A stretch of 64,000 nt of DNA from contig NZ_JACIJC010000002.1 in assembly GCF_014199215.1 (NCBI RefSeq), positions 186,001 through 250,000 on the forward strand. Direction: 5' to 3'. Both the position numbers and the translations under genes were made by a program. The notes under the pieces were generated by a model, which had not been told where the DNA came from, ran no database searches, and saw only the letters and a program-made list of their open reading frames with translations. Source of the stretch: Sphingobium boeckii. Lineage in GTDB: Bacteria; Pseudomonadota; Alphaproteobacteria; Sphingomonadales; Sphingomonadaceae. Positions 1,136 through 48,782 of this stretch are shown piece by piece (position 1 is the stretch's first letter; each line of letters opens with the position of its first letter).

Positions 1136-1144
1136 CTTATAGGA
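1136..1144 (-). promoter_or_regulatory. Putative flagellar -10 motif (TCCTATAAG) before flgI
   Basis: The minus strand reads TCCTATAAG immediately upstream of flgI. The same 9-mer or a close variant precedes most flagellar operons here. It lies only 7 nt from the ATG, closer than any other copy, so it would give a transcript with almost no leader. Confidence 0.5.
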
Positions 1145-1188
1145 TGGAGGATGAGGCCGGCGCTGGCCGGTCCAGAATTTTGGGCGAT

Positions 1189-2256
1189 TCAGGCGGCACG
1201 GCGCGCGATCCGCATCACGAAGCCGATGATTTCCGCCACCGCGGCATAATGCTCCACGGGAATGGGCCGATCGATTTCGACCGCCGCGTAAAGCGCCCGG
1301 GCAAGGGGCGGACTTTCCACGATCGGAACGCCGTTCGCGTCCGCGATCTCGCGGATCTTGAGCGCAATCGTATCCATGCCCTTTGCCACCACCACCGGCG
1401 CGGCCATATTCCCATGCTCATACTTCAACGCGACGGCATAATGGGTCGGGTTGGTGATGATCACGCTGGCACCGGGCACGGCAAACATCATTCGGCGACG
1501 CGCGCGCTGCACCCGGATCGACCGGACGCGCGCCTTGATCTTTGGATCGCCGTCATTGTTCTTCATCTCGTCCTTCAATTCCTGCAGAGACATGCGCATC
1601 CGCCGGAGAAAGGCCCGGCGCTGATAGACGAAATCAGCCATGCCGAGCGCCAGAACGAGAATACCCACGGCCTTGACCAGATCGAATATCAAAGCGCCCG
1701 CCACCTTGCCGATCATCCATGTGTTCATGCCGACAAGCTGATCGAGCGCGATCGCCCTGGGCCACAAAACCACGACCGCGACCGTCACGATGATCGTGAA
1801 TTTCGCCAGCGTCTTGCCAAATTCCACCAAGGCCCGCTGGCCCAATAGCCGCTTGAATCCGCTCATGGGCGAGAGTTTGGACCATTTCGGAGCAACCCGG
1901 CTCCACGAGAGCGTCGGGCGCCCCTGAAGGAATAACGTCAGCAGCGCGCAGCCAAAGAGCAGTCCTGCGATCGGCGCGAGCGAGAGCGCGGTCTGCTTCA
2001 TGATGCCGGTTGCCAGGCTCTGCGCGCCCAGCGGCTGCAGCGCATAATCATCCGCATTCCCCCAAAGCCGGACAAACATGGTGCTGAGGCTGTCGATGGT
2101 CCATGTGCCAAGCCCGCCCGCGACCACGATCATGCCCGCAAACATCGTGGCGTGGCGGACTTCGGGCGCATTCGCGACTTCGCCGCGCGCGCGCGCATCG
2201 TCGAGCCGCTTCTGGGTCGGCTCCTCGGTTTTTTGGCTCTGGTCGGTCTCGGCCAC
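1189..2256 (-). CDS. flhB: Flagellar type III export switch protein FlhB
   Basis: FlhB is an inner-membrane component of the flagellar export gate that switches substrate specificity from rod/hook to filament proteins. The 355-residue protein starts with the typical KTEEPTQKRLDDARARGEV segment and has four membrane segments between about residues 37 and 210. The autocleavage motif NPTH lies at residues 269-272, followed by YAVALKYE. The GTG start at 2256 was chosen because it lies just inside the fliR stop (2261-2263) and gives the conserved N-terminus. An earlier in-frame start at 2301 would add 15 residues unlike the family. It is the last gene of the fliE-fliQ-fliR-flhB run. Confidence 0.95.
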   Translation of the reverse strand: MAETDQSQKTEEPTQKRLDDARARGEVANAPEVRHATMFAGMIVVAGGLGTWTIDSLSTMFVRLWGNADDYALQPLGAQSLATGIMKQTALSLAPIAGLLFGCALLTLFLQGRPTLSWSRVAPKWSKLSPMSGFKRLLGQRALVEFGKTLAKFTIIVTVAVVVLWPRAIALDQLVGMNTWMIGKVAGALIFDLVKAVGILVLALGMADFVYQRRAFLRRMRMSLQELKDEMKNNDGDPKIKARVRSIRVQRARRRMMFAVPGASVIITNPTHYAVALKYEHGNMAAPVVVAKGMDTIALKIREIADANGVPIVESPPLARALYAAVEIDRPIPVEHYAAVAEIIGFVMRIARRAA

Positions 2257-2260
2257 GGCG

Positions 2261-3016
2261 TCAGGCCTGCCAGCCGCTCTGGAGGAAAGCCGCCATCGCA
2301 TTGGCGAAGGCGGTCAGGCTCGCGCCGATGGTCACGGCGAACAAGGCGAAGCCCATCATGATATTGAGCGGCTGGGTGATGAAGAACACTTGGATCGCAG
2401 GGGCCATGCGCGCCGCCAGACCCAGCGCCACATTGAACACGATGCCATAGACGATGAGCGGTGCCGCCATACCGAGGCCAAGCCCCATGGCATGACCGAC
2501 CGCGCTGATCGCGAGCCGCGCGAAATCCTCCGCAGGCGGCAATCCGCCGACCGGAAACACCGTATAGGACTGGATCATCGAACCGATCCACAGATGGTGC
2601 ACGCCCATCGCGAGACACACGACCGTGGCCGCCACCGCCACGAAATGCGCGATCATCGGCGATTGCCCGCCGAGCGCCGGATCGGAGACGAGCGCTGAAG
2701 ACAGGCCGATCTGCATACTCACGATCCCGCCGGCAATCGCCGCGGCCTTGAAGACGATGCTGATGATCGAACCAATGGCCAGCCCCACCAGAAGTTCTGA
2801 GATGATGATCCCCGGCAATGCGGTGTCGGTCAGTTGCGCAGGCGTCAGGCGACCGTGCAGCAGACCGAACAGCCCGGCCGTGAAGCCCATGCCCAGCAAA
2901 AGCCGGATCTGCGCCGGGATCGCCTCTTCGGAAAAAGCGGGGAGCAGCATCAGCACCGCGCCGATCCTGGCGAACAGGATCAGGAAGCCCGTTACGTCGA
3001 ATGGCAGATCGGTCAT
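2261..3016 (-). CDS. fliR: Flagellar export gate protein FliR
   Basis: FliR is an integral membrane protein of the flagellar type III export gate, assembled with FliP and FliQ. The 251-residue sequence has about six hydrophobic segments, an N-terminal LILFARIGAVLMLLPAF segment typical of FliR, and the family's usual length of about 250-260. The start at 3016 overlaps the fliQ stop by four bases, which suggests translational coupling. It lies between fliQ and flhB, the common gene order. Confidence 0.93.
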   Translation of the reverse strand: MTDLPFDVTGFLILFARIGAVLMLLPAFSEEAIPAQIRLLLGMGFTAGLFGLLHGRLTPAQLTDTALPGIIISELLVGLAIGSIISIVFKAAAIAGGIVSMQIGLSSALVSDPALGGQSPMIAHFVAVAATVVCLAMGVHHLWIGSMIQSYTVFPVGGLPPAEDFARLAISAVGHAMGLGLGMAAPLIVYGIVFNVALGLAARMAPAIQVFFITQPLNIMMGFALFAVTIGASLTAFANAMAAFLQSGWQA

Positions 3017-3282
3017 GCTCCGCCCGTGATGATCATATCGGAGATGCGCGTCATGAAGGTGGACAGCGCTTGGCCGATCATCGGCAGGGACAGCAGCAGC
3101 ACCAGCCCCATGATCAGGATCTTCGGCACGAAGGTCAGCGTCATTTCCTGCACCTGCGTCAAAGCCTGAAGCAGGCCGATGGACACGCCCACGATCAGCG
3201 AGGTAATCAGCATCGGCCCGGCCACGGTCAGCACGAGCACCAGCCCCGCCCGCGCCAGATCAATCGCCTGTAGCGAATCCAT
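3013..3282 (-). CDS. fliQ: Flagellar export gate protein FliQ
   Basis: FliQ is a small two-helix membrane subunit of the flagellar export gate. The 89 residues contain two transmembrane segments (about residues 17-40 and 53-75). Between them is the family-typical stretch GLLQALTQVQEMTLTFVPK. The length matches the family (about 89). It is followed by fliR with a 4-nt overlap and preceded by fliE with a 6-nt gap. Confidence 0.93.
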   Translation of the reverse strand: MDSLQAIDLARAGLVLVLTVAGPMLITSLIVGVSIGLLQALTQVQEMTLTFVPKILIMGLVLLLSLPMIGQALSTFMTRISDMIITGGA

Positions 3283-3288
3283 GATCGT

Positions 3289-3609
3289 TCAGATCTGCAT
3301 ACGCATGATTTCGGAATAGGCGTTCACCACCCGATCCCGCACGGCGACCACGGTCTCCAGCGCGGTTTCGGCGGCGCCGATCGCAGTGACCATATCGATC
3401 ATGTCGCCCTTGCCCGCCACCTGCTTGGCGCTCTCGCTTTCGGCGGTGCGCAAGGATGCGGCGGCATCTGTGACCATGGTCTGGATCATGCCGCCAAAGC
3501 TGGCAGGATTGGCTGAAGGTTCGGCGACGGCGCTTTCTGCGGGCGGCGTCACCATGGTCTTGAGTGCACGGCTATAAGCGGTGGTGGCGTCGAGTGTTCC
3601 GATGGACAT
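3289..3609 (-). CDS. fliE: Flagellar hook-basal body complex protein FliE
   Basis: FliE sits at the junction between the MS ring and the rod. It is the first axial protein exported. The 106 residues match FliE length and carry the conserved C-terminal half with DMVTAIGAAETALETVVAVRD and the end AYSEIMRMQI. It follows flgC by 11 nt in the rod/export operon. Assignment rests on this C-terminal pattern and the neighbours. Confidence 0.9.
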   Translation of the reverse strand: MSIGTLDATTAYSRALKTMVTPPAESAVAEPSANPASFGGMIQTMVTDAAASLRTAESESAKQVAGKGDMIDMVTAIGAAETALETVVAVRDRVVNAYSEIMRMQI

Positions 3610-3620
3610 GATCTTGATCC

Positions 3621-4028
3621 TTATTTGAGCAGGTCGATGGTGCGCATGGTCAGGCCGCGCGCCGCTTCGATGGCGTTGATATTGGCTTCATAGGAGCGCT
3701 GCGCGGCCTTCATGTCGGCCGCTTCGATCAGGCTGTTGACGTTGGGCCGCTGCACATAGCCCTGCGCATCGGCTGCCGGATTGCCGGGTTGATAGACGCT
3801 CTGAAACGCCGATTTGTCGCCCTCGATCGATTTCACCGCGACCGAATTGGCACCCGTGGCGCGATCGACCTCGGTCTTGAACGTCGCCACGCGGCGGCGA
3901 TACGGATCGCCGCCCGGCGTGCGCGCCACGGAATCGGTATTGGCCAGATTTTCGGCGATGACGCGCATCCGCAGCGATTGCGCGCGCAGACCGGACGCCG
4001 AAACGTCGATCGAGGATTGCAGCTCCAT
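3621..4028 (-). CDS. flgC: Flagellar proximal rod protein FlgC
   Basis: FlgC is one of the proximal rod proteins of the flagellar axis. The 135-residue protein has the rod signature near its N-terminus (SASGLRAQSLRMRVIAENLANTDS) and a C-terminal helix AAQRSYEANINAIEAARGL. I place the start at the ATG at 4028; the open frame continues to 4073, but the extra 15 residues are unlike the family. FlgB, its usual partner, is encoded far away at 51523. The gene opens a minus-strand operon behind a GCCTATAAG motif. Confidence 0.93.
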   Translation of the reverse strand: MELQSSIDVSASGLRAQSLRMRVIAENLANTDSVARTPGGDPYRRRVATFKTEVDRATGANSVAVKSIEGDKSAFQSVYQPGNPAADAQGYVQRPNVNSLIEAADMKAAQRSYEANINAIEAARGLTMRTIDLLK

Positions 4029-4062
4029 GATGGTCTCCCGTCCGCTCCATGCAGACATTTCT

Positions 4063-4071
4063 CTTATAGGC
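4063..4071 (-). promoter_or_regulatory. Putative flagellar -10 motif (GCCTATAAG) of the flgC operon
   Basis: The minus strand reads GCCTATAAG about 35 nt before the flgC ATG. It overlaps one end of the palindrome at 4069-4081, so a protein bound there would cover this -10 element. Confidence 0.5.
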
Positions 4072-4081
4072 ATTTTTTGCC
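4069..4081. promoter_or_regulatory. GGCAA-N3-TTGCC type palindrome between flgC and the fliN paralogue
   Basis: GGCATTTTTTGCC is one mismatch from the palindrome GGCAA-N3-TTGCC found in three other flagellar promoter regions. It overlaps the -10 element of the divergent flgC promoter. Its centre is 34 bp upstream of the -10 element of the plus-strand operon. Confidence 0.5.
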
Positions 4082-4108
4082 TAGCTGCGGATCAATCCTG
4101 CAAATTAT

Positions 4109-4117
4109 TCCTATAAC
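4109..4117 (+). promoter_or_regulatory. Putative flagellar -10 motif (TCCTATAAC) of the fliN2-fliO-fliP operon
   Basis: TCCTATAAC lies 20 nt before the ATG at 4138, with an AAGGAG ribosome site between them. The spacing is ordinary for a -10 element followed by a short leader. Confidence 0.5.
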
Positions 4118-4137
4118 GACCTTGAAAGGAGACCAGC

Positions 4138-4371: not shown

Positions 4372-4372
4372 G

Positions 4373-6560: not shown

Positions 6561-6579
6561 GGCGATACTCCCGCAGACA

Positions 6580-14846: not shown

Positions 14847-14855
14847 ATTATAGGA
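14847..14855 (-). promoter_or_regulatory. Putative flagellar -10 motif (TCCTATAAT) of the motA-che operon
   Basis: The minus strand reads TCCTATAAT about 43 nt before the motA ATG. An A-rich run (GGAAAAAACGGG) lies roughly 30 bp further upstream, but it lacks the TTGCC arm of the palindrome found elsewhere. Confidence 0.5.
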
Positions 14856-14939: not shown

Positions 14940-14948
14940 TCCTACAAT
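14940..14948 (+). promoter_or_regulatory. Putative flagellar -10 motif (TCCTACAAT) of flaF
   Basis: TCCTACAAT lies 27 nt upstream of the flaF ATG at 14976, with GGAGGAAGC as the ribosome site. It is divergent from the motA motif about 90 bp away. Confidence 0.5.
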
Positions 14949-15431: not shown

Positions 15432-15490
15432 ATGCAGAATCTCGTTACGCAATAAGCTTCTATAATATTGGAAAAAAAATGCAGAATCTC
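15432..15490 (+). repeat. Direct repeat ATGCAGAATCTC flanking the kinase start
   Basis: The 12-mer ATGCAGAATCTC occurs at 15432-15443 and again at 15479-15490, where it is the start codon and first codons of the kinase gene. Between the copies lies TTCTATAAT (15458-15466), a variant of the flagellar -10 motif, 12 nt before the ATG. Confidence 0.5.
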
Positions 15491-17962
15491 CCTCTGCATC
15501 AGCGTGATTCGGTGAAAATGGTTTTATGGGAAACGCGATCCCTGCCAATTTTCTCGCTCGTTGTCGCCATCCTGTGCTGCCTGATCAGTGGCTGGCACTC
15601 CCATGTGCTGCTGACCCAAGAGGCTGACGGCGCGGCATTTTCGGTGCAGCCGGCCGTCGCGGCGGCCTATGGCATGATTGCGTTGGCGCTCTTCGTGTTG
15701 ATCCATGAGCGCCCCTTGCCGGCGGCGCTTTTGCTGCTGCTTCCATCGCTGATCGGCGCGGCGACCCTGTCTCAGGAAACGTGGCAGGTCGATCGCCACT
15801 GGGGTCCGAGAACCTTGGGCAGTCCGATGTCTGGAACGACCATCTTGCTGCTCGCGCTGGTCACGGGCCTGCTGATGATAAGAGACCGCCAAGCCACCAG
15901 GATGGCGCGCATCGTCGCCGGCGTGACGATCGGGATCGCGGCGTGGTCGATATCGGCTTTTCCATCACGCTATGCCGCGCCAGCCGAGTTTCAGCTTTTC
16001 ATACCCGCCGGCGCTGGTCTGATCACAGGCCTGATCGCGATGGCCGCCATTGTCTGGAGCCAGAGCAAAGCCTGGCCCGGGCGCTTTTCCAGATCGCTCG
16101 CGACACGGACCAGGCTGATCGGCGCATTGGATTCCGCCACGATCGCCATCACCGATCCCGATGGCCGGATCCTGCATTGGTCCAGGGGTTGCGAGCAGCT
16201 TTATCAATGGTCAGCCGCCGATGCCGTCGGCCGGATCAAGCATGAATTGCTCCGCTCCAGCGCGGGTCCATCCGCAACGCCGATCGCCGTGAAAGGCGAG
16301 TGCGAGCGGGAAATCACGGAGCATAAGCAGGATGGTTCACCGGTCGAGATCCTGGAACAATCAAGACCGATTCAAGGCGCCACGAAAGCAGAAGGCATCA
16401 TCGTATTGACGATGACCGACATCACCGCGCGCAAGCAGATCGAACAAGCCTTGCGCGAGAGCGACGCGCGACTGGCGTTGGCCGTTGAGGCCCATGAAAT
16501 CGGCATATTCGAATGGACAATCGGATCCGATCTCGTTTCCTATTCAACTCAGGCCCAACGCCTTCTGGGATTTCCACCCGACACGGCATCCCTTGATACC
16601 GAGCGCGCCGAAAAGCTGATCCTCTCAAGCTTCCACAGGGAGTTTATTCCGCCGCTCGACGTCGCGCGTGAGAACCGGATTTCAAGGGTCAAATTTCAAC
16701 TGCGCACGATAGCCCCTGTCGCCATGCCGCAGGTCATCGAAGGATCGACGCATTGTTTTTACACGGATGACGGCCTGATTTCACGAATGCTGGGGGTGTT
16801 GCTCGATACGTCGGAACATGAACATCGCGCCACGATGCTGGAGATACGCGAGTCCGCGCTGAAAGCCATTCTCAAGACGGTGCCGGAAGCGCTCATCACG
16901 ATTGATATCACGGGCAAGGTTGGATCATTCAACGCCAATGCGGAAAAGCTGTTTGGACATCCGGCGCAGGATGTGATCGGACGCGATGTCGCGATGCTGA
17001 TGCCCAGAAAGTTTCGGCGCATCTATCATCGCTTTATAGATCGTTATCTTGAGACTGGGGAATATCCCCCGGTTGGCCCGGGCAATTACTGGATAGCGCT
17101 GCATCGCGACGGGAAGGAAATACCCGTCAAACTGTCGGTCGGGAAAGCGCAATCGGGGCCGGACTCCATTCTCACCTTATTTGTCAGCGATCTGACCGAC
17201 CAGATTGCTGATCAGACGCGACTGGCCAAGTTGCGGGATGAATTGCTCCATGTCTCCAGGCTGAGCGCGATGGGCGAAATGGCTGCCGGCCTGGCGCATG
17301 AATTGAATCAGCCGCTGGCCGCCATGAGCAATTTCGTGGGTGCGGCCGATCTCATCCTTGCCAATGACCGGTTCGACAAGAGCCGCGTCACGGAATTGCT
17401 GCGGCTCACCGCCTCTCAAGCGATGCGCGCCGGCGAAATCATTCAGCGCGTTCGCACTTTCGCATCCAAGGGCGAAGTGGAATTCCAGGCACAGCGCCTC
17501 GATGAAATCATTGCGGATTCGATTGATCTCGCGCTGACCAGTGCGGAAAGGAAGATCATCGACATCAAGACTGAAATCGATCCCCGCCATGCCTTCATCT
17601 TCGCGGATCGCGTCCAGATCCAGCAGGTTCTGGTCAACATGACGCGCAACGCCATCGAAGCGATGACGGACGCCAAGACGTATCACCCCCAGATTCATTT
17701 CGTCACGCGGGGAACAGAGGACAATATGGTGGAAATCGCCGTGAATGATAATGGACCCGGCATTCCGCTCGATGTGCTCAATCGGCACCACGAACATTTC
17801 GTTTCGTCCAAGGCGCATGGCATGGGGATTGGCCTTTCCATCTGCCGGCGGATCGTCGAAGCACATCGCGGCCGGCTGTCCACGGAAAACCTGCCGGGCG
17901 TGGGTGCCGTCGTGCGCTTTACGGTGCCGGCATTCGGAGACATCGAGCGCAGGGCATCATGA
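15479..17962 (+). CDS. FixL-like membrane sensor histidine kinase with PAS domains
   Basis: An 827-residue sensor kinase. The N-terminal 200 residues hold about six hydrophobic segments. Three PAS-like regions follow (about residues 215-320, 325-450 and 460-575); the last, with EALITIDITGKVGSFNANAEKLFG, is the FixL/TodS type. The HisKA domain carries the phospho-acceptor histidine near residue 606 (GLAHELNQPLAAMSNF). The HATPase domain ends in KAHGMGIGLSICRRIVEAHRG. The haem-binding histidine of true FixL is not evident, so the signal is unknown. It overlaps the FixJ-like regulator by four bases. It sits between flaF and the chemoreceptor, which suggests motility control. The ATG at 15479 has only a weak GGA ribosome site. 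Confidence 0.88.
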   Translation: MQNLPLHQRDSVKMVLWETRSLPIFSLVVAILCCLISGWHSHVLLTQEADGAAFSVQPAVAAAYGMIALALFVLIHERPLPAALLLLLPSLIGAATLSQETWQVDRHWGPRTLGSPMSGTTILLLALVTGLLMIRDRQATRMARIVAGVTIGIAAWSISAFPSRYAAPAEFQLFIPAGAGLITGLIAMAAIVWSQSKAWPGRFSRSLATRTRLIGALDSATIAITDPDGRILHWSRGCEQLYQWSAADAVGRIKHELLRSSAGPSATPIAVKGECEREITEHKQDGSPVEILEQSRPIQGATKAEGIIVLTMTDITARKQIEQALRESDARLALAVEAHEIGIFEWTIGSDLVSYSTQAQRLLGFPPDTASLDTERAEKLILSSFHREFIPPLDVARENRISRVKFQLRTIAPVAMPQVIEGSTHCFYTDDGLISRMLGVLLDTSEHEHRATMLEIRESALKAILKTVPEALITIDITGKVGSFNANAEKLFGHPAQDVIGRDVAMLMPRKFRRIYHRFIDRYLETGEYPPVGPGNYWIALHRDGKEIPVKLSVGKAQSGPDSILTLFVSDLTDQIADQTRLAKLRDELLHVSRLSAMGEMAAGLAHELNQPLAAMSNFVGAADLILANDRFDKSRVTELLRLTASQAMRAGEIIQRVRTFASKGEVEFQAQRLDEIIADSIDLALTSAERKIIDIKTEIDPRHAFIFADRVQIQQVLVNMTRNAIEAMTDAKTYHPQIHFVTRGTEDNMVEIAVNDNGPGIPLDVLNRHHEHFVSSKAHGMGIGLSICRRIVEAHRGRLSTENLPGVGAVVRFTVPAFGDIERRAS

Positions 17963-18576
17963 CGGATCGCGCGCTCTATATCGTCGATGATAATGATGAC
18001 GTCCGGCTGTCTCTGCACAGCTTGATGGCGACACAGACCGGTTTCGCCATCCGCTGTTTCAGTTCCGGCGACGAATTTCTGAAAAATGCCCCCGATCTTG
18101 CGCCGGGATGTATACTGCTGGACCTCAACATGCCCGGCGCCAATGGGCTTGAAGTGCTCAAGGAGATCGCGGGGCCGCCATCGCGCTTCGCCGCAATCAT
18201 CCTGACCGGACAGGGTGACATCACGCTGGCAGTCCATGCCATGAAGCTGAACGCGATCGATTTCCTGGAAAAGCCCTGCGATCCGCTCAGCCTGATTCAG
18301 GCCGTCGATCGCGCTTTCCTCTGGCTTGAAAAGCACAATGAGATTTCCTCCAAGGAGGCCGACGCGCGTGTGAAGCTGGCGCGCCTGTCTCCGCGTGAGC
18401 GCGATGTACTGCGCGGGCTTATCGATGGCTTGTCCAACAAGGTGATCGCACATCAACTGGATATCAGCCCGAGAACGGTGGAAATCTATCGCGCCAAGGT
18501 GATGGAAAAGCTCGACGTCAGAAGTTTGTCCGAAGCCTTGCGCGTCGCTTTCGCCAGCGGATTGTTTCCTGACTGA
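17959..18576 (+). CDS. FixJ-family response regulator (receiver + LuxR-type HTH)
   Basis: A 205-residue response regulator. The receiver has D10/D11, phosphoacceptor D55 (in ILLDLNMPGANG), T in LTGQGD and K in LEKPCDP. The LuxR-type helix-turn-helix spans about residues 140-195 (LSPRERDVLRGLIDGLSNKVIAHQLDIS). It shares an ATGA overlap with the FixL-like kinase, so the two form a cognate pair. Its targets are unknown. The arrangement is typical FixLJ/TodST, and regulation of motility is inferred only from position. Confidence 0.92.
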   Translation: MTDRALYIVDDNDDVRLSLHSLMATQTGFAIRCFSSGDEFLKNAPDLAPGCILLDLNMPGANGLEVLKEIAGPPSRFAAIILTGQGDITLAVHAMKLNAIDFLEKPCDPLSLIQAVDRAFLWLEKHNEISSKEADARVKLARLSPRERDVLRGLIDGLSNKVIAHQLDISPRTVEIYRAKVMEKLDVRSLSEALRVAFASGLFPD

Positions 18577-18825
18577 AGCGGTCTAACACCGCTGATGCCG
18601 CTGCAATAAGGCGTAGGCCAAAAAAATCCTATAATATGATGTAAGCGATTATGAGGCGCTGGCTCGCATGGCGCGCGATCGCGATGCTCATCCCAGCGGC
18701 ACCCTTTCGATCGCGGGGAACAGCGACACCGGCTTCCGGCATCGCCTTCGAACAGGACCGCCGGTTCCGAGACGGGCTTTCTGCGCGAACGCGGCATGGG
18801 GCATTTGACATTCAAGGATCAAGCC
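18577..18825 (+). other. Gap with promoter and long leader before the chemoreceptor
   Basis: Directly after the FixJ-like stop is a weak hairpin (AGCGGT-CTAAC-ACCGCT, 18577-18593) without a U-tract. A TCCTATAAT motif follows, leaving about 190 nt of leader before the chemoreceptor ATG. Open frames in this leader run into the chemoreceptor in the wrong frame and I do not consider them genes. Confidence 0.5.
18627..18635 (+). promoter_or_regulatory. Putative flagellar -10 motif (TCCTATAAT) of the chemoreceptor gene
   Basis: TCCTATAAT preceded directly by TAGGCCAAAAAAA, a context very like that of the flgC promoter (TAGGCAAAAAAT before GCCTATAAG on the minus strand at 4063). Confidence 0.5.
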
Positions 18826-20924: not shown

Positions 20925-21977
20925 TCAATGGCGCATGTTGGATTGCGGCCCCGCCAGATGACCACGATCGGCGATGGCCATATCGAGCATCTGTGCTTCG
21001 CTCAGCATGGGCAACAGCCGCCCATTGTGCTGCGGCTCGGGCAGGATGACGCAAAGAGGCATTTCGCCGTCCATCATGGTTTCCGTTTCGGTCTTCGGTG
21101 TCTTTCTGCGGATCATGCCGATCTTGCGATAATTCGCCATAAGCTGGAATTTCGGATCGCTTCCGGCCAGTTCGCCGATGGTCTTGGCTGCGCGCTTCGC
21201 AATCTGGCGGACCCGCTCCTTGGTGATCCCGGCATCATCCTCGATCACATCGCTGCCGGGCAGTTCGAACAGGCGGCTTTCCACGATCTCGCGGTTGCGC
21301 TTCAGCCGCAGATCGAGCTTCAGCAATTCTTCTGGATCGATATTGTGGAGCGCCGTGCGCGGACGCGATGCCATGCCGCCGCCGATTTCGCAGGGACGCG
21401 CTGGCGTTCTGGGACGGGGACGGCGCTTGAGCTGGCCGATCGCCGTGGTGCGCAGATGATCAATGTAGCTGTCGACCAGCGACTTCATGGCTGAAGATGC
21501 CAGATAATCGGCGGCGGCGGCTTCGGTCAGAGCCGTTGCGCTTTCGTCTTCGATCAGCGATTCCAGAGAAGTTTCTTCGCCTTCCGGTCCGCGGGTCGTC
21601 GCATGGAGAGACACCGTGGTGGCATCCACCTTTTTCGCAGATGGCCTCTGGTCGGTCATCAGACGAAAGCGAAGACCCTGTAATTCCCCCCGGATCTGCC
21701 AGTTTACGAATGTCGTGAATTGCGCTTTTTCCGGGTCATAGCCCTGGATCGCCCGATGCACTCCGATGGCGCAGACCTGTTCAGCATCGTCCCAATGTGC
21801 GGCCAATCCATATTGGCGGATGAAGTGGCGAATGCGCGGTGCGATCAATTTCAGGATATGGGCAAAGGCGCGATCGGTATCGACGCGTTGCCGTGCAGTC
21901 TGCTTCTCTCCGTCCTTAGGCTTATTGGCGATGACCAAGGCCACCGCTGATTCCAGCGCAATCGTGATTTTCGACAT
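20925..21977 (-). CDS. Divergent sigma-70 family factor of the flagellar island
   Basis: A 350-residue protein with recognisable sigma regions but unlike FliA or RpoH overall. Region 2 lies at about residues 35-105; YDPEKAQFTTFVNWQIRGEL covers 2.3-2.4, the part that reads the -10 element. Residues 110-150 include an acidic stretch, and residues 183-212 are Arg/Pro-rich. A region-4 HTH follows at 228-270 with ITKERVRQIAKRAAKTIG. An 80-residue tail without known features ends the protein. It has a GGAGGG ribosome site and a CtrA-like box upstream. No fliA or flgM is present, so this is the best candidate for the sigma factor reading the TCCTATAAT promoters; that function is inference. Confidence 0.8.
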   Translation of the reverse strand: MSKITIALESAVALVIANKPKDGEKQTARQRVDTDRAFAHILKLIAPRIRHFIRQYGLAAHWDDAEQVCAIGVHRAIQGYDPEKAQFTTFVNWQIRGELQGLRFRLMTDQRPSAKKVDATTVSLHATTRGPEGEETSLESLIEDESATALTEAAAADYLASSAMKSLVDSYIDHLRTTAIGQLKRRPRPRTPARPCEIGGGMASRPRTALHNIDPEELLKLDLRLKRNREIVESRLFELPGSDVIEDDAGITKERVRQIAKRAAKTIGELAGSDPKFQLMANYRKIGMIRRKTPKTETETMMDGEMPLCVILPEPQHNGRLLPMLSEAQMLDMAIADRGHLAGPQSNMRH

Positions 21978-22043: not shown

Positions 22044-22062
22044 ATGGTTAACAACCCGTTAT
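22044..22062 (-). promoter_or_regulatory. CtrA-like box upstream of the sigma factor gene
   Basis: The minus strand reads ATAA-CGGGTTG-TTAACCAT. This matches the CtrA consensus TTAA-N7-TTAA (extended half TTAACCAT) with a single mismatch. It lies about 67 nt upstream of the sigma factor ATG. CtrA sits at the top of the flagellar hierarchy in many alphaproteobacteria. Confidence 0.6.
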
Positions 22063-22083: not shown

Positions 22084-22104
22084 TATCCTATAATTTTTAG
22101 GATA
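22084..22104. repeat. AT-rich inverted repeat at the transglycosylase stop codon
   Basis: TATCCTA-N7-TAGGATA on the minus strand, including the TAA stop of the upstream gene and followed by ATAATTTTATT. It may be a weak terminator. Its plus strand contains TCCTATAAT, but no gene follows in that direction, so I do not call a promoter. Confidence 0.45.
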
Positions 22105-23095
22105 CTCGCCCGGGGCCGACGGGCTGAAGCGCCGCAAAACGCGCCGGGCGGATATTGCGTCCTACAAAGCCGAGCAGCCAATTGCGGTGTGCGCTGACAG
22201 CGTCTCCGGTCTCGGCGATGCGCCGATTGGCCGCCCCATTGCCGATCTGCGCGTCCAGGAGGCGGCGCGCACGCCCGGCCTGAAGGCCACCCTTCATGAA
22301 TTTGATCGCGTCGCCAATCCCCAGATGATGGCCGAAATAAGCAGCCTGGGCGATGTCATCCAGGCCTTGGCCCACATGGACACCGGCAGAGCGCAGGCGG
22401 TCGAGATTGCCCTTGGCATAGTCCGCAATGGCGTTGATCGATGCCTCGGGATCATAGCGCAGCGCCAGCAATTGGGATCGCGCCTCCTTGATCACCTTTC
22501 CCCGTCCATCAACCCAGCCCCGCGCGATGCACAGGCTGTTGAGCCAGGTGCCTGACCGCTCGGCCTCTCCGCGCCAAGTGCCGCTCAGAAACTGTCCCAG
22601 TCCGGCGGCGCTGGATCGCGGATTGCGGGAATAGACGCGCCAGCGCCCGTCCTCGTCCTTGGCGGCTTCCGCATTGACGATCGCCGCGAGCGCAGGTGCC
22701 GGAATGCCCGTTCGCACTGCCGATGCCTGGAGGATATTGGTAAAACCGGCATTGACCCCAAGCCCCGCGGGTCGCTCAGCCGCAACAGCGCGAGCGGCAG
22801 GCACAACGGGCTCTGCTTTTGTCGGTATTGCCAATGGTTCGGCCTTTGTCTGTGACGCCCGCCGCGCTGGCGCTGCATCATCGGCATCGCGCGCCATCAT
22901 CAGCGCCATGAGTGAGTCCAGCGATACGCCTTGTGCGCTGCGCTCCATCTTAGGCGTGCGGGCATAGCTGCCATCACCCGCGCCGAGCGCCGCCTGCCAT
23001 AAGCGCGTGGAAAGCTCACTCCGCGCCTGGGCATAGATCAGCTCCGCGCGCCGCATCGCGGCTTCCTGCGCATGATCGACGCGCCCGATCATCAT
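22097..23095 (-). CDS. Lytic transglycosylase-like protein (FlgJ substitute)
   Basis: A 332-residue protein. Its C-terminal two thirds resemble SLT-type lytic transglycosylases: a probable catalytic Glu in AAIVNAEAAKDEDGRW, then SSAAGLGQFLSGTW, then repeated helices up to AYFGHHLGIGDAIKFM. The first 110 residues are low-complexity (Ala, Pro, Lys) and show no FlgJ rod-binding domain or signal peptide. Lacking a Sec signal, it may be exported through the flagellar apparatus to open peptidoglycan for the rod. Its start overlaps the fliJ stop (ATGA), so it belongs to the fliI-fliJ operon. Confidence 0.78.
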   Translation of the reverse strand: MMIGRVDHAQEAAMRRAELIYAQARSELSTRLWQAALGAGDGSYARTPKMERSAQGVSLDSLMALMMARDADDAAPARRASQTKAEPLAIPTKAEPVVPAARAVAAERPAGLGVNAGFTNILQASAVRTGIPAPALAAIVNAEAAKDEDGRWRVYSRNPRSSAAGLGQFLSGTWRGEAERSGTWLNSLCIARGWVDGRGKVIKEARSQLLALRYDPEASINAIADYAKGNLDRLRSAGVHVGQGLDDIAQAAYFGHHLGIGDAIKFMKGGLQAGRARRLLDAQIGNGAANRRIAETGDAVSAHRNWLLGFVGRNIRPARFAALQPVGPGRVS

Positions 23096-23514
23096 CCCCA
23101 CCTGCGCAGGCGGCGCACGACGGCGGTGGCCGCCATATCGTCCATATGTCCCTGCTCGCCATTCGCCGCTTTGCGGGTTTCATCGTCCCGATAAGTGTCG
23201 GCGGCGGATTCGATGGCCTTGAAATCGCCATAAGCGGCCAGCGCCGTCGTCCGCAGCCGGCCAAGCCTGACATCGGCCTCGTCGCGCTCCGCGGCCAGGC
23301 GCTCGCGCAGCATTCGCATCCGTTCCATATAGGCATGGGAACTCAGTGCATGATCGCCCGCGGCGATTTCGGCTTCTTTGGCGAGCGTGTGGTCGACATC
23401 GCTGTGGTGACTTTCGATCTGCACCAATTGATTGATCTGGATATTGATGGCCACCTGCGCGGTGTCGATCTCGCGTCGGCGGATGCGCATCGCAGCGTCA
23501 TACGGGGTCTTCAT
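23092..23514 (-). CDS. fliJ: Flagellar export chaperone-like protein FliJ
   Basis: A 140-residue, highly charged helical protein. Its two long coiled-coil segments (about residues 5-60 and 70-125) match FliJ, the stalk-like subunit that sits in the FliI ATPase ring. Sequence conservation in FliJ is low, so the call rests on position directly after fliI (17-nt overlap), length and coiled-coil character. The frame stays open to 23745, but that part overlaps fliI; the ATG at 23514 gives the normal length. Confidence 0.75.
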   Translation of the reverse strand: MKTPYDAAMRIRRREIDTAQVAINIQINQLVQIESHHSDVDHTLAKEAEIAAGDHALSSHAYMERMRMLRERLAAERDEADVRLGRLRTTALAAYGDFKAIESAADTYRDDETRKAANGEQGHMDDMAATAVVRRLRRWG

Positions 23515-25280: not shown

Positions 25281-25289
25281 ATTATAGGA
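25281..25289 (-). promoter_or_regulatory. Putative flagellar -10 motif (TCCTATAAT) of the flbT-fliI operon
   Basis: The minus strand reads TCCTATAAT about 39 nt before the flbT ATG. The palindrome at 25317-25329 is centred 34 bp upstream of it. Confidence 0.55.
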
Positions 25290-25316: not shown

Positions 25317-25329
25317 GGCAAATTTTGCC
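25317..25329. promoter_or_regulatory. Perfect GGCAA-N3-TTGCC palindrome between flbT and flgE
   Basis: GGCAAATTTTGCC sits midway between two divergent promoters. Its centre is 34 bp from the flbT -10 motif and 31 bp from the flgE -10 motif. This symmetric position fits one regulator dimer acting on both operons. Confidence 0.6.
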
Positions 25330-25353
25330 TATCTTTGGTTCTGCACAGCCCCC

Positions 25354-25362
25354 TCCTACAAT
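25354..25362 (+). promoter_or_regulatory. Putative flagellar -10 motif (TCCTACAAT) of the flgE-flgK-flgL operon
   Basis: TCCTACAAT, 52 nt before the GTG start of flgE and 31 bp from the centre of the shared palindrome. Confidence 0.55.
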
Positions 25363-32293: not shown

Positions 32294-32302
32294 ATTATAG
32301 AA
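32294..32302 (-). promoter_or_regulatory. Variant flagellar -10 motif (TTCTATAAT) before the small membrane protein
   Basis: The minus strand reads TTCTATAAT 29 nt before the ATG at 32264. It differs from the consensus only at the second base. The plus strand (TCCTATTAT at 32290-32298) could serve the divergent gene at 32384, but the match is weaker. Confidence 0.4.
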
Positions 32303-35569: not shown

Positions 35570-35578
35570 ATTATAGGA
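35570..35578 (-). promoter_or_regulatory. Putative flagellar -10 motif (TCCTATAAT) of the fliL operon
   Basis: The minus strand reads TCCTATAAT 75 nt before the fliL ATG. The nearby palindrome (35588-35600) is centred 16 bp upstream of it, closer than in the flbT and flgE promoters. Confidence 0.5.
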
Positions 35579-35587: not shown

Positions 35588-35600
35588 GGAAAATTTTGCC
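35588..35600. promoter_or_regulatory. GGCAA-N3-TTGCC type palindrome between fliL and flgF
   Basis: GGAAAATTTTGCC, one mismatch from the consensus. It lies between the divergent fliL and flgF operons. No TCCTATAAT motif is seen on the flgF side. Confidence 0.5.
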
Positions 35601-38461: not shown

Positions 38462-38545
38462 GGATAAATAAATCCGCCGCGTGTGTTTGGAGGCCCAATA
38501 TTTCTTCCCAGAATAAGGGGCGGGCTGAAATATCTGGACCGTCGA

Positions 38546-42289: not shown

Positions 42290-44478
42290 GCTGCTTCCCT
42301 TGAGGCATTAGCCCGATCATATTCATTATAGGATGAATCCAGGATATCCGGCGCGCAGATCACACCGAGCGTCCTGATCCGCGATCGCGCGTGGATTTCA
42401 TTCTGAGACAGGATGACGGTCGCAGGGCGCACCCGCTCGATGATCGAACGGACGAAGGGACGGATCGACGGGCTGGTCATCAGGCACGGGATTTCGCCCT
42501 GCGCCGCCAGCGCATCGAACGTCTCGCGCACCGCAGCGATGAAGCCCTGGAGGCTGGACGGTGCCATCGCCAGATGTCGGTCATCGCCCTGCCCTACGAT
42601 GCTCTCGGCAAACGCATCATCCCAATAAGCCGACATCGTCACGATCGGAATGGCACCGTCGCGCGTCTGCTGCGCCGAAATCTGCCGCGCGAGGCGACTG
42701 CGGACATGTTCGGTCATTTGCGTCAGATTCTGGGTGAAGCCCGCGGCTTCTGCGACACCCTCCAATATGGTGGGGATATCCCGGATCGAAACGCTTTCGG
42801 CGAGCAAATTCTGCAAGATGCGCTGCACGCCCGAGACCGAAATCTTGGATGGGATGATATCCGCGATCAGCTTGTCGGAATCCTTGTGCACATCGGTCAG
42901 CAGCTTTTGCGTTTCGCTATAGGAAAGCAGATCGGCGATATTGTCCTTCACGATTTCGGTCAGATGCGTGGTGATGATCGTGCCGCTATTGACCACGGTC
43001 AGCCCGCGCAGTCCGGCCTCGTCACGCAGGCTGCGATCGATCCACAGTGCCGGCAGATCGAACACCGGCTCCCGCGTTTCCTCTCCGGCAATGCCGATGT
43101 TGCCGCCGCCGGGGTTTATCACCATCAGCTTGTCGATCCGGATTTCGCCGCGCGCGGCCTCCGTTTCCTTCACGAACACCACATATTCATTCGCGTGAAG
43201 CGACATATTGTCGAGGATGCGAACCGAGGGCAGCACGAAGCCGTAATCCATCGCCATCTGCCGCCGCAGCGCGCGCACCTGATCGTCAAGCCGCGGTTCG
43301 GCATTGCTGTCGTTGATCAACGGCAGCAGCGCATAACCCAGTTCGATCCGCACGGTATCGATCGCCAGCGTGCGCGCGATCGGCTCGTCCACCTGCTCGG
43401 CCTGCTGCTGCGCCATCGCCTTTTCGAGCCGTTCCTTGACGGCCTCGGCCTCGGCCTTGCGGCCCATCTGCCAGGCGAAATAGCCGCAAAGGCCGCCAAG
43501 CGAGACGAAGGGCAGAAATGGCAGTCCGGGCATCAGCGCCAGCGCCAGCATCAGCACCGCCACCATGCCAAAGGCCTTGGGATAGCGCCCGAGCTGCTCA
43601 CCCAACGCCGCACCGGTCTTGCCCGTCACGCCGCCCTTGGACACCAGCAGGCCCGCCGCGATCGAGACGATCAGCGCGGGGATCTGGCTGACCAGACCAT
43701 CGCCGACCGTGAGGATCGTATAGCTGTGAAAAGCCTCGCCAAAGGGCACGCCATGGATCGCCACACCAATGATCAGGCCGACGATGACGTTGATGGCCGT
43801 GATGATCAGACAGGCGACGGCGTCGCCCTTCACGAATTTGGAGGCACCATCCATTGCGCCGTAAAAGCCGCTCTCCGCTTCGATCTCCGCGCGGCGCTCC
43901 CGCGCCTGGATTTCGCTGATCATACCCGCAGACATATCCGCGTCGATCGCCATCTGCTTGCCGGGCATGGCATCGAGGCTGAAGCGCGCGGCCACTTCGG
44001 CGATGCGCCCCGCGCCCTTGGTGATGACGACGAAATTGATTACCACCAGGATCATGAAGATGGTGAGGCCGATCACGGTCTGCCCGCCCATCAGGAATTC
44101 GCCGAAAGCCGCGATCACGCCGCCTGCTGCCTGATGCCCCTCATGGCCATGGCCCAGGATCAGCCGCGTGGACGCCAGGTTGAGGCCCAGCCGCAGCATG
44201 GTCGTGATCAGGAGAATCGTCGGAAAGCTCGAAAGCTGGAGTGGCTTGTCGATGAAGAGTGACGTCATCAGGATCAGCACGGAGGCGGTGATCGAGAGCG
44301 CCAGGCCGAAATCCAGCATCCATGCCGGCATCGGCAGGATCAGCATCGCGATGATCGCGATCACGCCGCCCGCCAGCGCCAGATCCCGTCCGGGGCCGAA
44401 GCTCTGCAAAACGCGCGTTATCTGCGCAGGTATGAAGCTGGATGGCATGATCTGGTTCCGGACCTGGGACATGGACAT
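42286..44478 (-). CDS. flhA: Flagellar export gate protein FlhA
   Basis: FlhA is the large membrane subunit of the flagellar export gate. The protein (730 residues from the ATG at 44478) has eight membrane segments in the first half, with FPTILLITTMLRLGLNLASTRLIL and the FHIPEP-type loop (ITKGAGRIAEVAARFSLDAMPGKQMAIDADMSAGMI). The C-terminal cytoplasmic domain binds chaperone-substrate complexes. The start overlaps the FlbD-like stop (TGATG); an ATG at 44448 would also be acceptable. The 3' end contains the fliK promoter motif. Confidence 0.95.
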   Translation of the reverse strand: MSMSQVRNQIMPSSFIPAQITRVLQSFGPGRDLALAGGVIAIIAMLILPMPAWMLDFGLALSITASVLILMTSLFIDKPLQLSSFPTILLITTMLRLGLNLASTRLILGHGHEGHQAAGGVIAAFGEFLMGGQTVIGLTIFMILVVINFVVITKGAGRIAEVAARFSLDAMPGKQMAIDADMSAGMISEIQARERRAEIEAESGFYGAMDGASKFVKGDAVACLIITAINVIVGLIIGVAIHGVPFGEAFHSYTILTVGDGLVSQIPALIVSIAAGLLVSKGGVTGKTGAALGEQLGRYPKAFGMVAVLMLALALMPGLPFLPFVSLGGLCGYFAWQMGRKAEAEAVKERLEKAMAQQQAEQVDEPIARTLAIDTVRIELGYALLPLINDSNAEPRLDDQVRALRRQMAMDYGFVLPSVRILDNMSLHANEYVVFVKETEAARGEIRIDKLMVINPGGGNIGIAGEETREPVFDLPALWIDRSLRDEAGLRGLTVVNSGTIITTHLTEIVKDNIADLLSYSETQKLLTDVHKDSDKLIADIIPSKISVSGVQRILQNLLAESVSIRDIPTILEGVAEAAGFTQNLTQMTEHVRSRLARQISAQQTRDGAIPIVTMSAYWDDAFAESIVGQGDDRHLAMAPSSLQGFIAAVRETFDALAAQGEIPCLMTSPSIRPFVRSIIERVRPATVILSQNEIHARSRIRTLGVICAPDILDSSYNEYDRANASREAA
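42325..42333 (-). promoter_or_regulatory. Putative flagellar -10 motif (TCCTATAAT) for fliK inside flhA
   Basis: The minus strand reads TCCTATAAT 35 nt before the fliK ATG, within the last codons of flhA (SSYNE). The preceding ATCCTGGATTCA resembles ATCCTGCATCA before the flbT motif. Confidence 0.45.
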
Positions 44479-44930
44479 CAGTGCGCCGGGGAAACGGCGA
44501 TGCCGTCCTCGATGAAGCTGCGCAGCTTGTTGCGCATCGTGCGTACGGAAATGCCCAGCATATGCGCGGCCGAGGTGCGGTTGCCGCGACAATGCGCCAG
44601 CGTCCCCAGGATCAGCGCCCGCTCTACCTCGGCGACGGTGCGACCGACCAGAGCATCCACGGGCAATCCCGATGACGGCCATCCGCCATTCTGCCCGCGC
44701 AGCCGCGCAAGCAGATCAGGCACATCGACCGAGATTTCGATCATCACCATCGCTTCAGTCGCTTCCCGCATCCAATCGATCGTCTCGGCATTCGGCAAGC
44801 GGATGGCGAGTTCCCGTCGTGAGATGCGCGCCAGTTCGCGTGCCAGGTCGCGGGTATTGCGCAGATCGCCGAGCAGCATGAGCGGCGTTGCATCCGCCGC
44901 CGTGAGCCGGCTTGAAGAGGCCATATCCAT
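44478..44930 (-). CDS. FlbD-like regulator lacking the AAA+ domain
   Basis: A 150-residue protein. Its C-terminal 60 residues (LVGRTVAEVERALILGTLAHCRGNRTSAAHMLGISVRTMRNKLRSF) are the Fis-type DNA-binding domain of FlbD, the sigma54-dependent flagellar regulator. The N-terminal 85 residues correspond at most to a shortened receiver-like part. The entire central AAA+ domain, including Walker A, Walker B and GAFTGA, is absent, so it cannot activate sigma54 polymerase. It lies between fliN and flhA with overlapping starts and stops, so it is expressed with the export operon. It probably binds DNA as a dimer. Confidence 0.82.
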   Translation of the reverse strand: MDMASSSRLTAADATPLMLLGDLRNTRDLARELARISRRELAIRLPNAETIDWMREATEAMVMIEISVDVPDLLARLRGQNGGWPSSGLPVDALVGRTVAEVERALILGTLAHCRGNRTSAAHMLGISVRTMRNKLRSFIEDGIAVSPAH

Positions 44931-46911: not shown

Positions 46912-46962
46912 AGGAAGCCTCGCAACTTGAAAAAGCAAGGACTTCAGTGACCTTGCAATTCC

Positions 46963-46971
46963 ATTATAGGA
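46963..46971 (-). promoter_or_regulatory. Putative flagellar -10 motif (TCCTATAAT) of the fliF operon
   Basis: The minus strand reads TCCTATAAT 51 nt before the fliF start. The palindrome at 46984-46996 is centred 19 bp upstream. Confidence 0.55.
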
Positions 46972-46983
46972 GGGTTGCGGCTA

Positions 46984-46996
46984 GGCAATTCTTGCC
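46984..46996. promoter_or_regulatory. Perfect GGCAA-N3-TTGCC palindrome upstream of fliF
   Basis: GGCAATTCTTGCC, between the fliH stop and the fliF promoter. In Caulobacter the fliF promoter is controlled by FlbD, and the FlbD-like gene here is in the same operon. Confidence 0.55.
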
Positions 46997-47010
46997 GGGG
47001 CGATTTCTTT

Positions 47011-47682
47011 TCAATCGGCCGAATTTTGCCCCAGAAGCGGCGCGATTTCATCGATTACCGCCTGGCGACGGGCTGCCGCATCGATCGCCAGGCCACCTTC
47101 ATCCCAGTTGATCCGGGCGTCCCCCGCCGCGATCGTCTCATCGGGGAGGACGGTGATCGAAAGCTTACGGCGCTCCTGACCCTTGCGCGCCTCCACGCAC
47201 CGCTCCACCTCATCGACCAGCGTGGGATTCACACGGATATCCAGCCGCGTCCCTCGCGCCACCTGACGCAGAACGCGGCCAAGCGCATCGCTGATCGCCA
47301 GCGCGGGCGCGGTGGCCACGGCATGACCAGCCAGCGCCTCCGCGGCGATCAGCGCCACATCGGCAGCATCTTCCTTCATCGCATCCGCCGCGTCGATCAG
47401 ATGCTCTTCGATATCATCCAGCGCGCCATGCAAGGCATCGACCGCCGCCAGCAACGCGGCGTTGCGCTCGGTGCGCGCCTGATGAAGCCCGGCTTCGAAG
47501 CCATCGGCGCGGGCTTGTGACAGTTCCACCTCATGCAGGTCCATGAGCCGCGCGATTTCGCGCTGCAGCCCTGCAATTTCTGCCGCGGCTTCGGCATCTT
47601 CGGCCTTGGCGGCGAGGTCCGCCGTGGCGAAGTGAAACACGCGATCGAAGCCGAACGGCCTCACCTGGATCACCCGCTCCAT
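47011..47682 (-). CDS. fliH: Flagellar export ATPase regulator FliH
   Basis: FliH binds FliI and links it to the C-ring. The 223-residue protein has a helical N-terminal half (ADLAAKAEDAEAAAEIAGLQREIARLMDLHEVELSQARADGFEAGLHQA) and a C-terminal domain with VTVLP-like ITVLPDETIAAGDARINWDEGGLAID, the FliH/V-ATPase E pattern. It follows fliG with a TGATG overlap. Similarity within FliH is low, so position supports the call. Confidence 0.85.
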   Translation of the reverse strand: MERVIQVRPFGFDRVFHFATADLAAKAEDAEAAAEIAGLQREIARLMDLHEVELSQARADGFEAGLHQARTERNAALLAAVDALHGALDDIEEHLIDAADAMKEDAADVALIAAEALAGHAVATAPALAISDALGRVLRQVARGTRLDIRVNPTLVDEVERCVEARKGQERRKLSITVLPDETIAAGDARINWDEGGLAIDAAARRQAVIDEIAPLLGQNSAD

Positions 47683-48716
47683 CAGTAGATCACGGATTCA
47701 TCGCTGCGCGGATCGACCAGCATGATTTCGCCGCGATCGCCCAGGGATTTGGCGAGGATGACCAGATTGGCTTGTGCGTCTTCGCAATCGCGCGCGCGCA
47801 CCGGCCCCATCGCCGCCATATCGTCGCGCATCAGCTTGGCGGCGCGCTGGGTCATGCCAGACATGAAGAGCTGCTTGGTTTCCTCGGGGGTTCCCTTCAG
47901 CGCCAGCGCCAGCTCGCGCTTGTTGCAATTGCGCACGATCGTCTGGATCGCGGCAGGCAGCAACTTGCTCAAATCCTCGAACGTGAACATGAGCGCGCGG
48001 ATGCGTTCGGCGGATTCCGGCGCGCGTTCTTCCAGCGCGGATAGCATCGCTTCCTCGGTCGATCGATCGAGCGCGTTGAACACTTCGGCCATCGCCTCAT
48101 GCGGATCACGGCGTTGCGCGCGGGAGAGGTTGCTCATGAATTCGCTCTTGAGCGTCTGCTCTACCTGGTAGATCACATCCTTTTGCACCGTATCCATCCG
48201 CAACATGCGCAGCACGACATCGGTCGCCAGATCCTTGGGCAGTTCGGACAGCACGCGCGCCGCATGATCGGGCTTCAGCTTGTGCAGGATCACCGCCACC
48301 GTCTGGGGATATTCATTCTTGAGATAGGAGGCGAGGACGGTTTCGCTGACGTTGGACAGCTTGTCCCACATCGTGCGACCGGAAGGTCCGCGGATATCCT
48401 CCATGATCTCCTTCACGCGCTCGAGCGGCAAAATGCCTTCGAGCAGACGTTCGGTCGTTTCGAACGAGCCATGCAAGGTGGCCATGCTGGCGACTTCGCC
48501 GGAAAATTGGACGAGAAGATGTTCGACCACAACGGCGGGCACGCGGCCAAGCTGCGCGATCGTCGACGACAGTTCCTTGATCTCATCATTGGTGAGCTGT
48601 TCCCAGATCGGCGCGCCATGATCCTGGCCAAGCGCCAGCATCAGGGCCGCGGCGCGCTGGAGCCCGGAAAACTTCTTCATCTCCGGCGGTTCGCCGATCG
48701 GCGCCATCAAACTCAT
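47682..48716 (-). CDS. fliG: Flagellar motor switch protein FliG
   Basis: FliG is the C-ring protein touched by the stator. The 344-residue protein contains the three armadillo-like domains. Recognisable parts are LQRAAALMLALGQDHGAPIWEQL, the EHPQ-like stretch EYPQTVAVILHKLKPDHAARVLSELP, and the C-terminal torque helix FTFEDLSKLLPAAIQTIVRNCNKRELALALKG. The ATG at 48716 has GGGGAAA upstream; the frame extends to 48818 across the promoter. It heads fliG-fliH, followed by fliF with its own promoter. Confidence 0.94.
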   Translation of the reverse strand: MSLMAPIGEPPEMKKFSGLQRAAALMLALGQDHGAPIWEQLTNDEIKELSSTIAQLGRVPAVVVEHLLVQFSGEVASMATLHGSFETTERLLEGILPLERVKEIMEDIRGPSGRTMWDKLSNVSETVLASYLKNEYPQTVAVILHKLKPDHAARVLSELPKDLATDVVLRMLRMDTVQKDVIYQVEQTLKSEFMSNLSRAQRRDPHEAMAEVFNALDRSTEEAMLSALEERAPESAERIRALMFTFEDLSKLLPAAIQTIVRNCNKRELALALKGTPEETKQLFMSGMTQRAAKLMRDDMAAMGPVRARDCEDAQANLVILAKSLGDRGEIMLVDPRSDESVIY

Positions 48717-48773
48717 GCCATTTCCCCAAATAAATCCGCGAAAGCGTGCCTGAAGCGGCCGCCGTCCGTCTAT

Positions 48774-48782
48774 CTTATAGGA
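48774..48782 (-). promoter_or_regulatory. Putative flagellar -10 motif (TCCTATAAG) of the fliG-fliH operon
   Basis: The minus strand reads TCCTATAAG 57 nt before the fliG ATG. A different palindrome (GGCCGATCGGCC) lies just upstream instead of GGCAA-N3-TTGCC. Confidence 0.5.

Follow-up and report, generated by a model that had tools for sequence, protein, structure and literature searches.

A -10-like element, a candidate sigma-70-family factor and a FlbD remnant in the flagellar island of Sphingobium boeckii

Introduction

Which form of RNA polymerase transcribes the flagellar operons of Sphingobium boeckii, and what directs it there? The question is raised by a 64,000-nucleotide stretch of this sphingomonad's genome (contig NZ_JACIJC010000002.1, positions 186,001 to 250,000, forward strand; hereafter the window), in which a 9-mer, TCCTATAAT, recurs upstream of the operons of a 48-kb flagellar island. 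Flagellar control in sphingomonads is termed little known in PMC8921679, which interprets Sphingomonas sp. WG as Caulobacter-like, with FlbD activating sigma54, presents the WG flagellar clusters as lacking fliA, gives a similar gene order for strain S2M10 and, citing Francez-Charlot 2015, names CtrA as the master regulator of motility in S. melonis. FlbD, ftr, FliX and CtrA are described for Caulobacter in PMC3930126. The answer that we favor as probable, with considerable room for doubt, is that TCCTATAAT is read by a sigma factor encoded within the island, with a disarmed FlbD as its cofactor, and that this pair would have replaced a Caulobacter-type sigma54/FlbD circuit.

Results

The element in the window and the genome

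At up to one mismatch TCCTATAAT occurs 17 times in the window (7 copies exact), a number reached in 0 of 100 sequence shuffles, which averaged 2.26 copies. For 13 of the 17 a motility gene follows shortly on the same strand, which upholds the proposal of the initial annotation that the element recurs before flagellar operons on the correct strand; the other four are a copy inside an open reading frame (ORF) (5909, minus), a palindromic partner (32290, plus) that overlaps the copy at 32294, minus, and a pair that precedes the sigma-like gene in antisense orientation (22063 and 22086, plus). The genes that it had listed stand for flgI, fliN2, motA, flaF, the chemoreceptor, flbT, flgE, fliL, fliK, fliF and fliG, and the copies that it had placed before a FixL-like kinase and a small 83-amino-acid protein were both located; flgC drops out, having only the two-mismatch GCCTATAAG, which overlaps a palindrome. 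Flagellin has the two-mismatch TCCCAGAAT, and flgF, flgD and flagellin are without a sense copy at up to one mismatch in the window. None was found at that threshold between 48.8 and 64 kb, in line with the earlier statement that no copies are rightly placed before the non-flagellar genes at 52-64 kb. The sites and the two proteins considered below are as follows.

1136..1144, minus: candidate -10 TCCTATAAG, a match with at most one mismatch, before a gene that we take from its N-terminus to be flgI
4063..4071, minus: candidate -10 of flgC, GCCTATAAG, two mismatches, overlapping the palindrome at 4069-4081
4069..4081, no strand: ftr-like palindrome GGCATTTTTTGCC, 27 nt before the fliN2 motif
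4109..4117, plus: TCCTATAAC before fliN2-fliO-fliP
14847..14855, minus: TCCTATAAT before the motA-che genes
14940..14948, plus: TCCTACAAT before flaF
15458..15466, plus: TTCTATAAT before the FixL-like kinase gene
18627..18635, plus: TCCTATAAT before the chemoreceptor gene
20925..21977, minus: predicted divergent sigma-70-family protein P0001, 350 amino acids, proposed reader of the element
22044..22051, minus: TTAACCAT, half-site of the CtrA type preceding the sigma gene (consensus in part from PMC8921679)
22063..22094, plus: TCCTATATT and TCCTATAAT, direct copies at a distance of 23 nt, preceding the sigma gene and antisense to it
25281..25289, minus: TCCTATAAT before flbT-fliI
25317..25329, no strand: ftr-like palindrome GGCAAATTTTGCC, common to the divergent flbT and flgE promoters
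25334..25339, plus: TTTGGT, -35-like, with a 17-nt spacer to the flgE hexamer
25354..25362, plus: TCCTACAAT before flgE-flgK-flgL
32294..32302, minus: TTCTATAAT before the 83-amino-acid protein (start 32264)
35570..35578, minus: TCCTATAAT before fliL-fliM
35588..35600, no strand: palindrome GGCAAAATTTTCC, 7 of 8 letters, 9 nt before the fliL motif
38486..38491, plus: TTTGGA, -35-like, before flagellin
38506..38514, plus: TCCCAGAAT, two-mismatch -10 candidate of flagellin
42325..42333, minus: TCCTATAAT before fliK-flgD
44478..44930, minus: mini-FlbD, 150 amino acids, AAA+ domain missing, between fliN and flhA
46963..46971, minus: TCCTATAAT before fliF
46984..46996, no strand: ftr-like palindrome GGCAAGAATTGCC, 12 nt before the fliF motif
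48774..48782, minus: TCCTATAAG before fliG

The whole genome (4,031,522 bp) holds 13 exact copies, 7 of them within the 48-kb island (binomial 5.5e-11); two of the six outside it lie inside long ORFs (L001 and L009), and none of the six was recognised as a motility promoter. At up to one mismatch there are 227 copies, with 17 in the window at about five times the density found elsewhere, and the reversed motif, taken as a control, is commoner (334), so that TCCTATAAT is concentrated here and not generally common. The genome's other flagellar island, which is of the FliA type, has no exact copy. That set, at C4:134-140 kb (L072), is unrelated and has its own FliA and sigma54 activator.

Conservation in related islands

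We searched 149 genomes of the family, of which 25 match the sigma-like protein (10 closely) and 105 have FlhA-type proteins; the best-scoring FlhA group, which is the window's type, comprises 12 genomes (G000 being the window's own). A close sigma relative lies within about 26 kb of flhA in 9 of the 12. Exact copies in the island, as a fraction of those in the genome, amount in these nine to 7/13 (G000), 5/8 (G018), 7/11 (G102), 6/11 (G067), 5/5 (G039), 5/6 (G117), 2/4 (G006), 2/4 (G125) and 0/3 (G094), and the three islands that share this FlhA type but lack the sigma gene have none: 0/2 (G048), 0/4 (G052, whose island is readable only as a 16-kb contig) and 0/9 (G036). Exact copies also lie close to the islands of G125, G006 and G102 but outside them, where they precede a chemoreceptor-like gene, an unnamed gene common to G006 and G125 and a GGDEF-type gene (named by eye).

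Fifty-two named loci from Sphingomonas, Novosphingobium, Sphingobium, Sphingosinicella and Stakelama, each surrounding a sigma relative, hold 56 exact copies, spread over 32 of the loci, against an average of 0.88 for 1260 letter permutations; TTCCTATAA (31) and TATCCTATA (21) score high as shift-overlaps of the motif, and the best unrelated permutation reaches 22. Some loci without an exact copy carry a looser GCTATAAG-like site, and in S2M10-like loci the flbT promoter is GCTATAAG behind the same palindrome. Position is consistent as well: copies stand upstream of fliF in 9/9, fliN2 in 9/11 and motA in 19/23 cases, and in only 6 of 498 cases upstream of 29 operon-internal genes (fliI 3/55, flgG 2/10, fliE 1/9, the other 26 genes 0/424). 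The same count gave 10/22 for flaF, 0/18 for flgF, 1/9 for flgC and 1/8 for fliC; the values for flgE (0/21), fliG (1/9), fliL (0/1) and flbT (19/55) are undercounts caused by gene starts set too far upstream (for flbT in part), and a separate site collection was used for these genes. Of 8 islands, 4 carry the exact TCCCAGAAT block at flagellin, 3 a version with one base changed and G094 one with two. A seed-free ranking of 7-mers in 136 upstream regions of related islands put CCTATAA first (64 regions, 1.39 expected) and also returned TCCTATA, CTATAAT and pieces of GGCAAAATTTGCC.

Promoter anatomy and the palindrome

Ninety-four sites were aligned (107 before near-copies were dropped), chosen at up to one mismatch with TA fixed, so that conservation inside the 9-mer is biased upward and the flanks are unbiased. 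T-C-A is favoured just before TCCTATAAT, and the third base of the hexamer is variable (TCCTACAAT at flgE, TCCTAGAAT or TCCTAAAAT at flaF), which is also true of sigma-70 -10 elements. In 11 of 21 flgE promoters TTTGG or TTGGG begins 19-21 nt ahead of TCC (a 17-18-nt spacer to the hexamer), and in 6 of 8 flagellin promoters it begins 20-22 nt ahead, one of the six having an 18-19-nt spacer; no clear -35 was found over all aligned sites together. This base pattern, together with the TTTGG or TTGGG that some of the promoters have 17-18 nt upstream of the hexamer, resembles a sigma-70-type promoter. Strand, position, conservation and the lack of exact copies in the FliA-type island argue for what the initial annotation had suggested, and an extended -10 of a dedicated flagellar regulon appears to be the best-supported reading of the element.

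Near the 107 sites, related ones included, the palindrome GGCAnnnnnTGCC (at least 7 of 8 letters) was found within 80 nt upstream in 57 cases and downstream in 6, with 5.6 expected; the gap to the motif is 9-13 nt in 16 cases, 23-30 nt in 32 and of other lengths in 9. A FixL-like kinase and a FixJ-like regulator are encoded within the island (15479-18576, plus). The latter (17959-18576) was rejected as the palindrome's binder, having no match in the G006 island although the palindrome is present there.

Sigma28, sigma54 and CtrA were likewise rejected as readers of the element. As the initial annotation had it, neither of the first two signatures fits: simple counts give them no support, the sigma28-type GCCGATAA having 2 exact copies in the window versus 1 in the random control, and scoring the regions before flagellar genes for sigma54 sites is uninformative, the threshold being reached by 21-33% of random sequences too. 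A response-regulator-type sigma54 activator with an intact GAFTGA, which is not FlbD, is encoded outside the island at 56363-57838 (plus).

The sigma-like protein

Three features had been overlooked in the initial annotation, namely the sigma-like gene, the palindrome and the FlbD remnant. The product of 20925-21977 (minus) weakly matches TIGR02937 (E 2e-8) and Sigma70_r2 (E 9e-5). Among 25 relatives Sigma70_r2 is found in 24 (E<=0.01) and Sigma70_r4 in 10, the window protein not being one of the ten; the KER-RQI motif of region 4 is kept. Region 2 is nearly invariant in the alignment of relatives and region 4 variable, a combination that would fit promoters in which the -10 is strict and the -35 loose. 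The predicted structure has a block-mean pLDDT above 90 over residues 1-100; solved sigma A chains top the Foldseek list (best E 7.4e-4), and lone region-2 structures of SigC and SigE give a target TM of 0.72-0.75 at E above 1. Similarity in region 2, and in part in region 4, points to a divergent sigma-70-family protein with a predicted role in core binding and initiation. It was rejected as a FliA, scoring 26.2 bits versus the FliA/WhiG cut-off of 189.6; the FliA of this genome (210.5 bits) belongs to the second flagellar set, and no FliA above cut-off was found in G018, G125 or G094.

The adjoining gene (22097-23101, minus) is conserved and by eye resembles a lytic transglycosylase, with no NCBIfam or Pfam match. 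Sigma-like relatives also occur in genomes without FlhA (L022 in G035, and the weaker matches L024-L038), and G035 keeps the gene corresponding to 22097-23101 too.

In 32 non-redundant regions before the sigma gene ATAGGA is present in 23 (0.76 expected), often in tandem. The same regions hold TTAACC in 10 (0.23 expected) and TTAAAG in 9 (0.14 expected), as in CtrA-type boxes, and such a box suggests a hierarchy running from CtrA to the sigma factor to the flagellar operons. Many of the genomes sampled by loci L077-L128 have 1-3 TATAGGA (antisense TCCTATA) before the sigma gene, often 9, 15 or 21-24 nt apart.

FlbD is disarmed, shortened or intact

Full-length FlbDs of sigma-bearing genomes have lost the threonine of the sigma54-contacting GAFTGA loop and the Walker-B aspartate in 24 of 24 cases; the 24 come from G006, G125, G094 and 21 of 27 named genomes searched, and the FlbD of G117 lies outside the count. 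Of the other six named genomes, five have a stub between fliN and flhA and G166 has neither FlbD nor stub. Mini-FlbDs without an ATPase domain occur in 10 genomes. A PF00158 search beside flhA found no FlbD ATPase in G000, G018, G102, G067 and G039, nor was an FlbD-type ATPase found in G018, and on this blank FlbD had seemed excluded as the palindrome's binder; an HTH_8 search then found a domain beside flhA in the same five genomes, which removed the objection. The G000 mini-FlbD joins the start of a receiver-like domain to the DNA-binding end of FlbD, and its DNA-binding domain is 68% identical over 62 residues to that of G006 FlbD; the C-terminal DNA-binding domain and the place beside flhA indicate descent from FlbD. 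Across five helix-turn-helix (HTH) regions compared, 235 of 344 codon changes fall at position 3, an excess that points to purifying selection on mini-FlbD.

FlbD is intact in 33 of 33 cases from other genomes, that is, in all three sigma-less islands (G048, G052, G036) and in 30 of 30 class-wide, the best of a longer list; the class-wide group was taken as sigma-less since sigma relatives appeared only in sphingomonads at close-relative sensitivity, and not genome by genome. On the sigma tree the stub requires at least two changes. FliX, the partner of FlbD, is present in 6 of 7 genomes with a disarmed FlbD, 1 of 9 with a stub and 2 of 3 without the sigma gene. In G036, sigma-less and with FlbD intact, GGCAAAATTTGCC stands before fliF, and flgK is preceded by a sigma54-like site followed, 128 nt past it, by GGCAATTATTGCC; this arrangement is plausibly the ancestral one.

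Discussion

In the mechanism that we favor, TCCTATAAT (more widely TCC-[T/C]A-n-AAT) would be the -10 recognised by polymerase carrying the sigma-70-family factor of 20925-21977 (minus). FlbD, here the ATPase-less remnant at 44478-44930 (minus), would bind the ftr-like GGCAnnnnnTGCC just upstream and aid transcription as a cofactor that binds DNA, no longer as an ATPase that activates sigma54. CtrA would act on the sigma gene through the CtrA-type box, and the sigma factor in turn on the flagellar operons. We infer these three roles from the arrangement of sites and genes. Several observations weigh against the scheme: (i) both family matches of the sigma-like protein fall below their curated cut-offs (34.1 bits versus 42.9 for TIGR02937, 22.6 versus 24 for Sigma70_r2) and its whole-chain Foldseek TM is about 0.2; (ii) G094 has a sigma relative (45%) yet no exact island copy, and G035 has one with FlhA absent and 0/2 exact copies; (iii) an exact copy is absent from 20 of the 52 named loci within the stretch examined; (iv) a few promoters of the same operons have no palindrome; (v) the often tandem antisense copies before the sigma gene point away from it; and (vi) TATAAT is also the housekeeping consensus.

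The last point leads to an alternative that we regard as unlikely but worth serious attention, in which TATAAT is read by the housekeeping sigma factor, FlbD or mini-FlbD at the palindrome confers specificity together with a TCC-preferring protein, and the island sigma-like protein has some other function. TATAAT is the general -10 consensus, the palindrome is placed as for an activator and most early promoters are without a -35; enhancer-binding proteins lacking GAFTGA are also reported at sigma70 promoters in PMC10274813. However, TCC is as strictly kept as TATAAT (among sites preselected at up to one mismatch), flagellin retains TCC-A-AAT without TATAAT, and the motif tracks the sigma gene across islands. 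The tandem copies facing away from the sigma gene (ATAGGA in 23 of the 32 regions, at spacings of 9, 15 or 21-24 nt) are the best argument for a further alternative, that TCCTATA is mainly the operator of some regulator, overlapping the -10 and also controlling the sigma gene, and some promoter copies are indeed palindromic (TCCTATAATAGGA). We consider this improbable, as the copies before flagellar genes are consistent in strand and distance, a variable third hexamer base and a -35-like TTTGG suit a promoter, and a candidate regulator was not found. Short AT-rich words are conspicuous in 62% G+C DNA, but chance or base composition is ruled out by the controls: the shuffles (0/100), the permutations (56 versus a mean of 0.88), the seed-free ranking and conservation in other genomes.

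If an island sigma factor does read TCCTATAAT, a sphingomonad lineage would have swapped the sigma54/FlbD circuit for it, FlbD being first disarmed and then, at least twice, cut to a stub still active at ftr sites; we give this history slightly better than even chances. It would be a traceable replacement of the sigma factor running a whole organelle, with its intermediates (intact FlbD, disarmed full-length FlbD and stub) alive today, and would supply a testable regulator for sphingomonad flagellar control. It would also warn that an flbD annotation need not imply sigma54 control: S2M10, whose gene order is similar to that of WG according to PMC8921679, has a disarmed FlbD (L131). Literature titles and abstracts, with most subscription papers lying outside the search and an earlier account thus possible, gave no description of such a sigma factor, element or disarmed FlbD, and the matches listed in a text search of papers for the motif letters were all unrelated.

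The island shares with the Caulobacter circuit (CtrA, FlbD/FliX at ftr, sigma54) an alphaproteobacterial gene set with FlbT and FlaF, an FlbD-type gene beside flhA, ftr-like palindromes and a CtrA-type box high in the hierarchy. It differs in that its FlbD has lost either the whole ATPase or, within it, the sigma54 loop and Walker-B aspartate, whereas Caulobacter FlbD has GAFTGA (PMC10274813), in that the palindromes lie 9-30 nt from TCCTATAAT and in that a sigma-70-type gene sits inside the island. Like FliA (sigma28), the island protein would be a sigma-70-family factor tied to flagellar genes; unlike FliA, it scores below the FliA cut-off, comes with no enrichment of GCCGATAA and is proposed to read early and late operons alike. 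Precedent for a disarmed activator comes from the GAFTGA-less NtrC of Rhodobacter capsulatus and Caulobacter, an NtrC-type protein that has lost the sigma54 loop and is reported at sigma70 promoters in PMC10274813. Here, by contrast, the protein is FlbD, its Walker-B aspartate has become arginine, its ATPase is gone in 10 genomes and the loss accompanies an island sigma gene.

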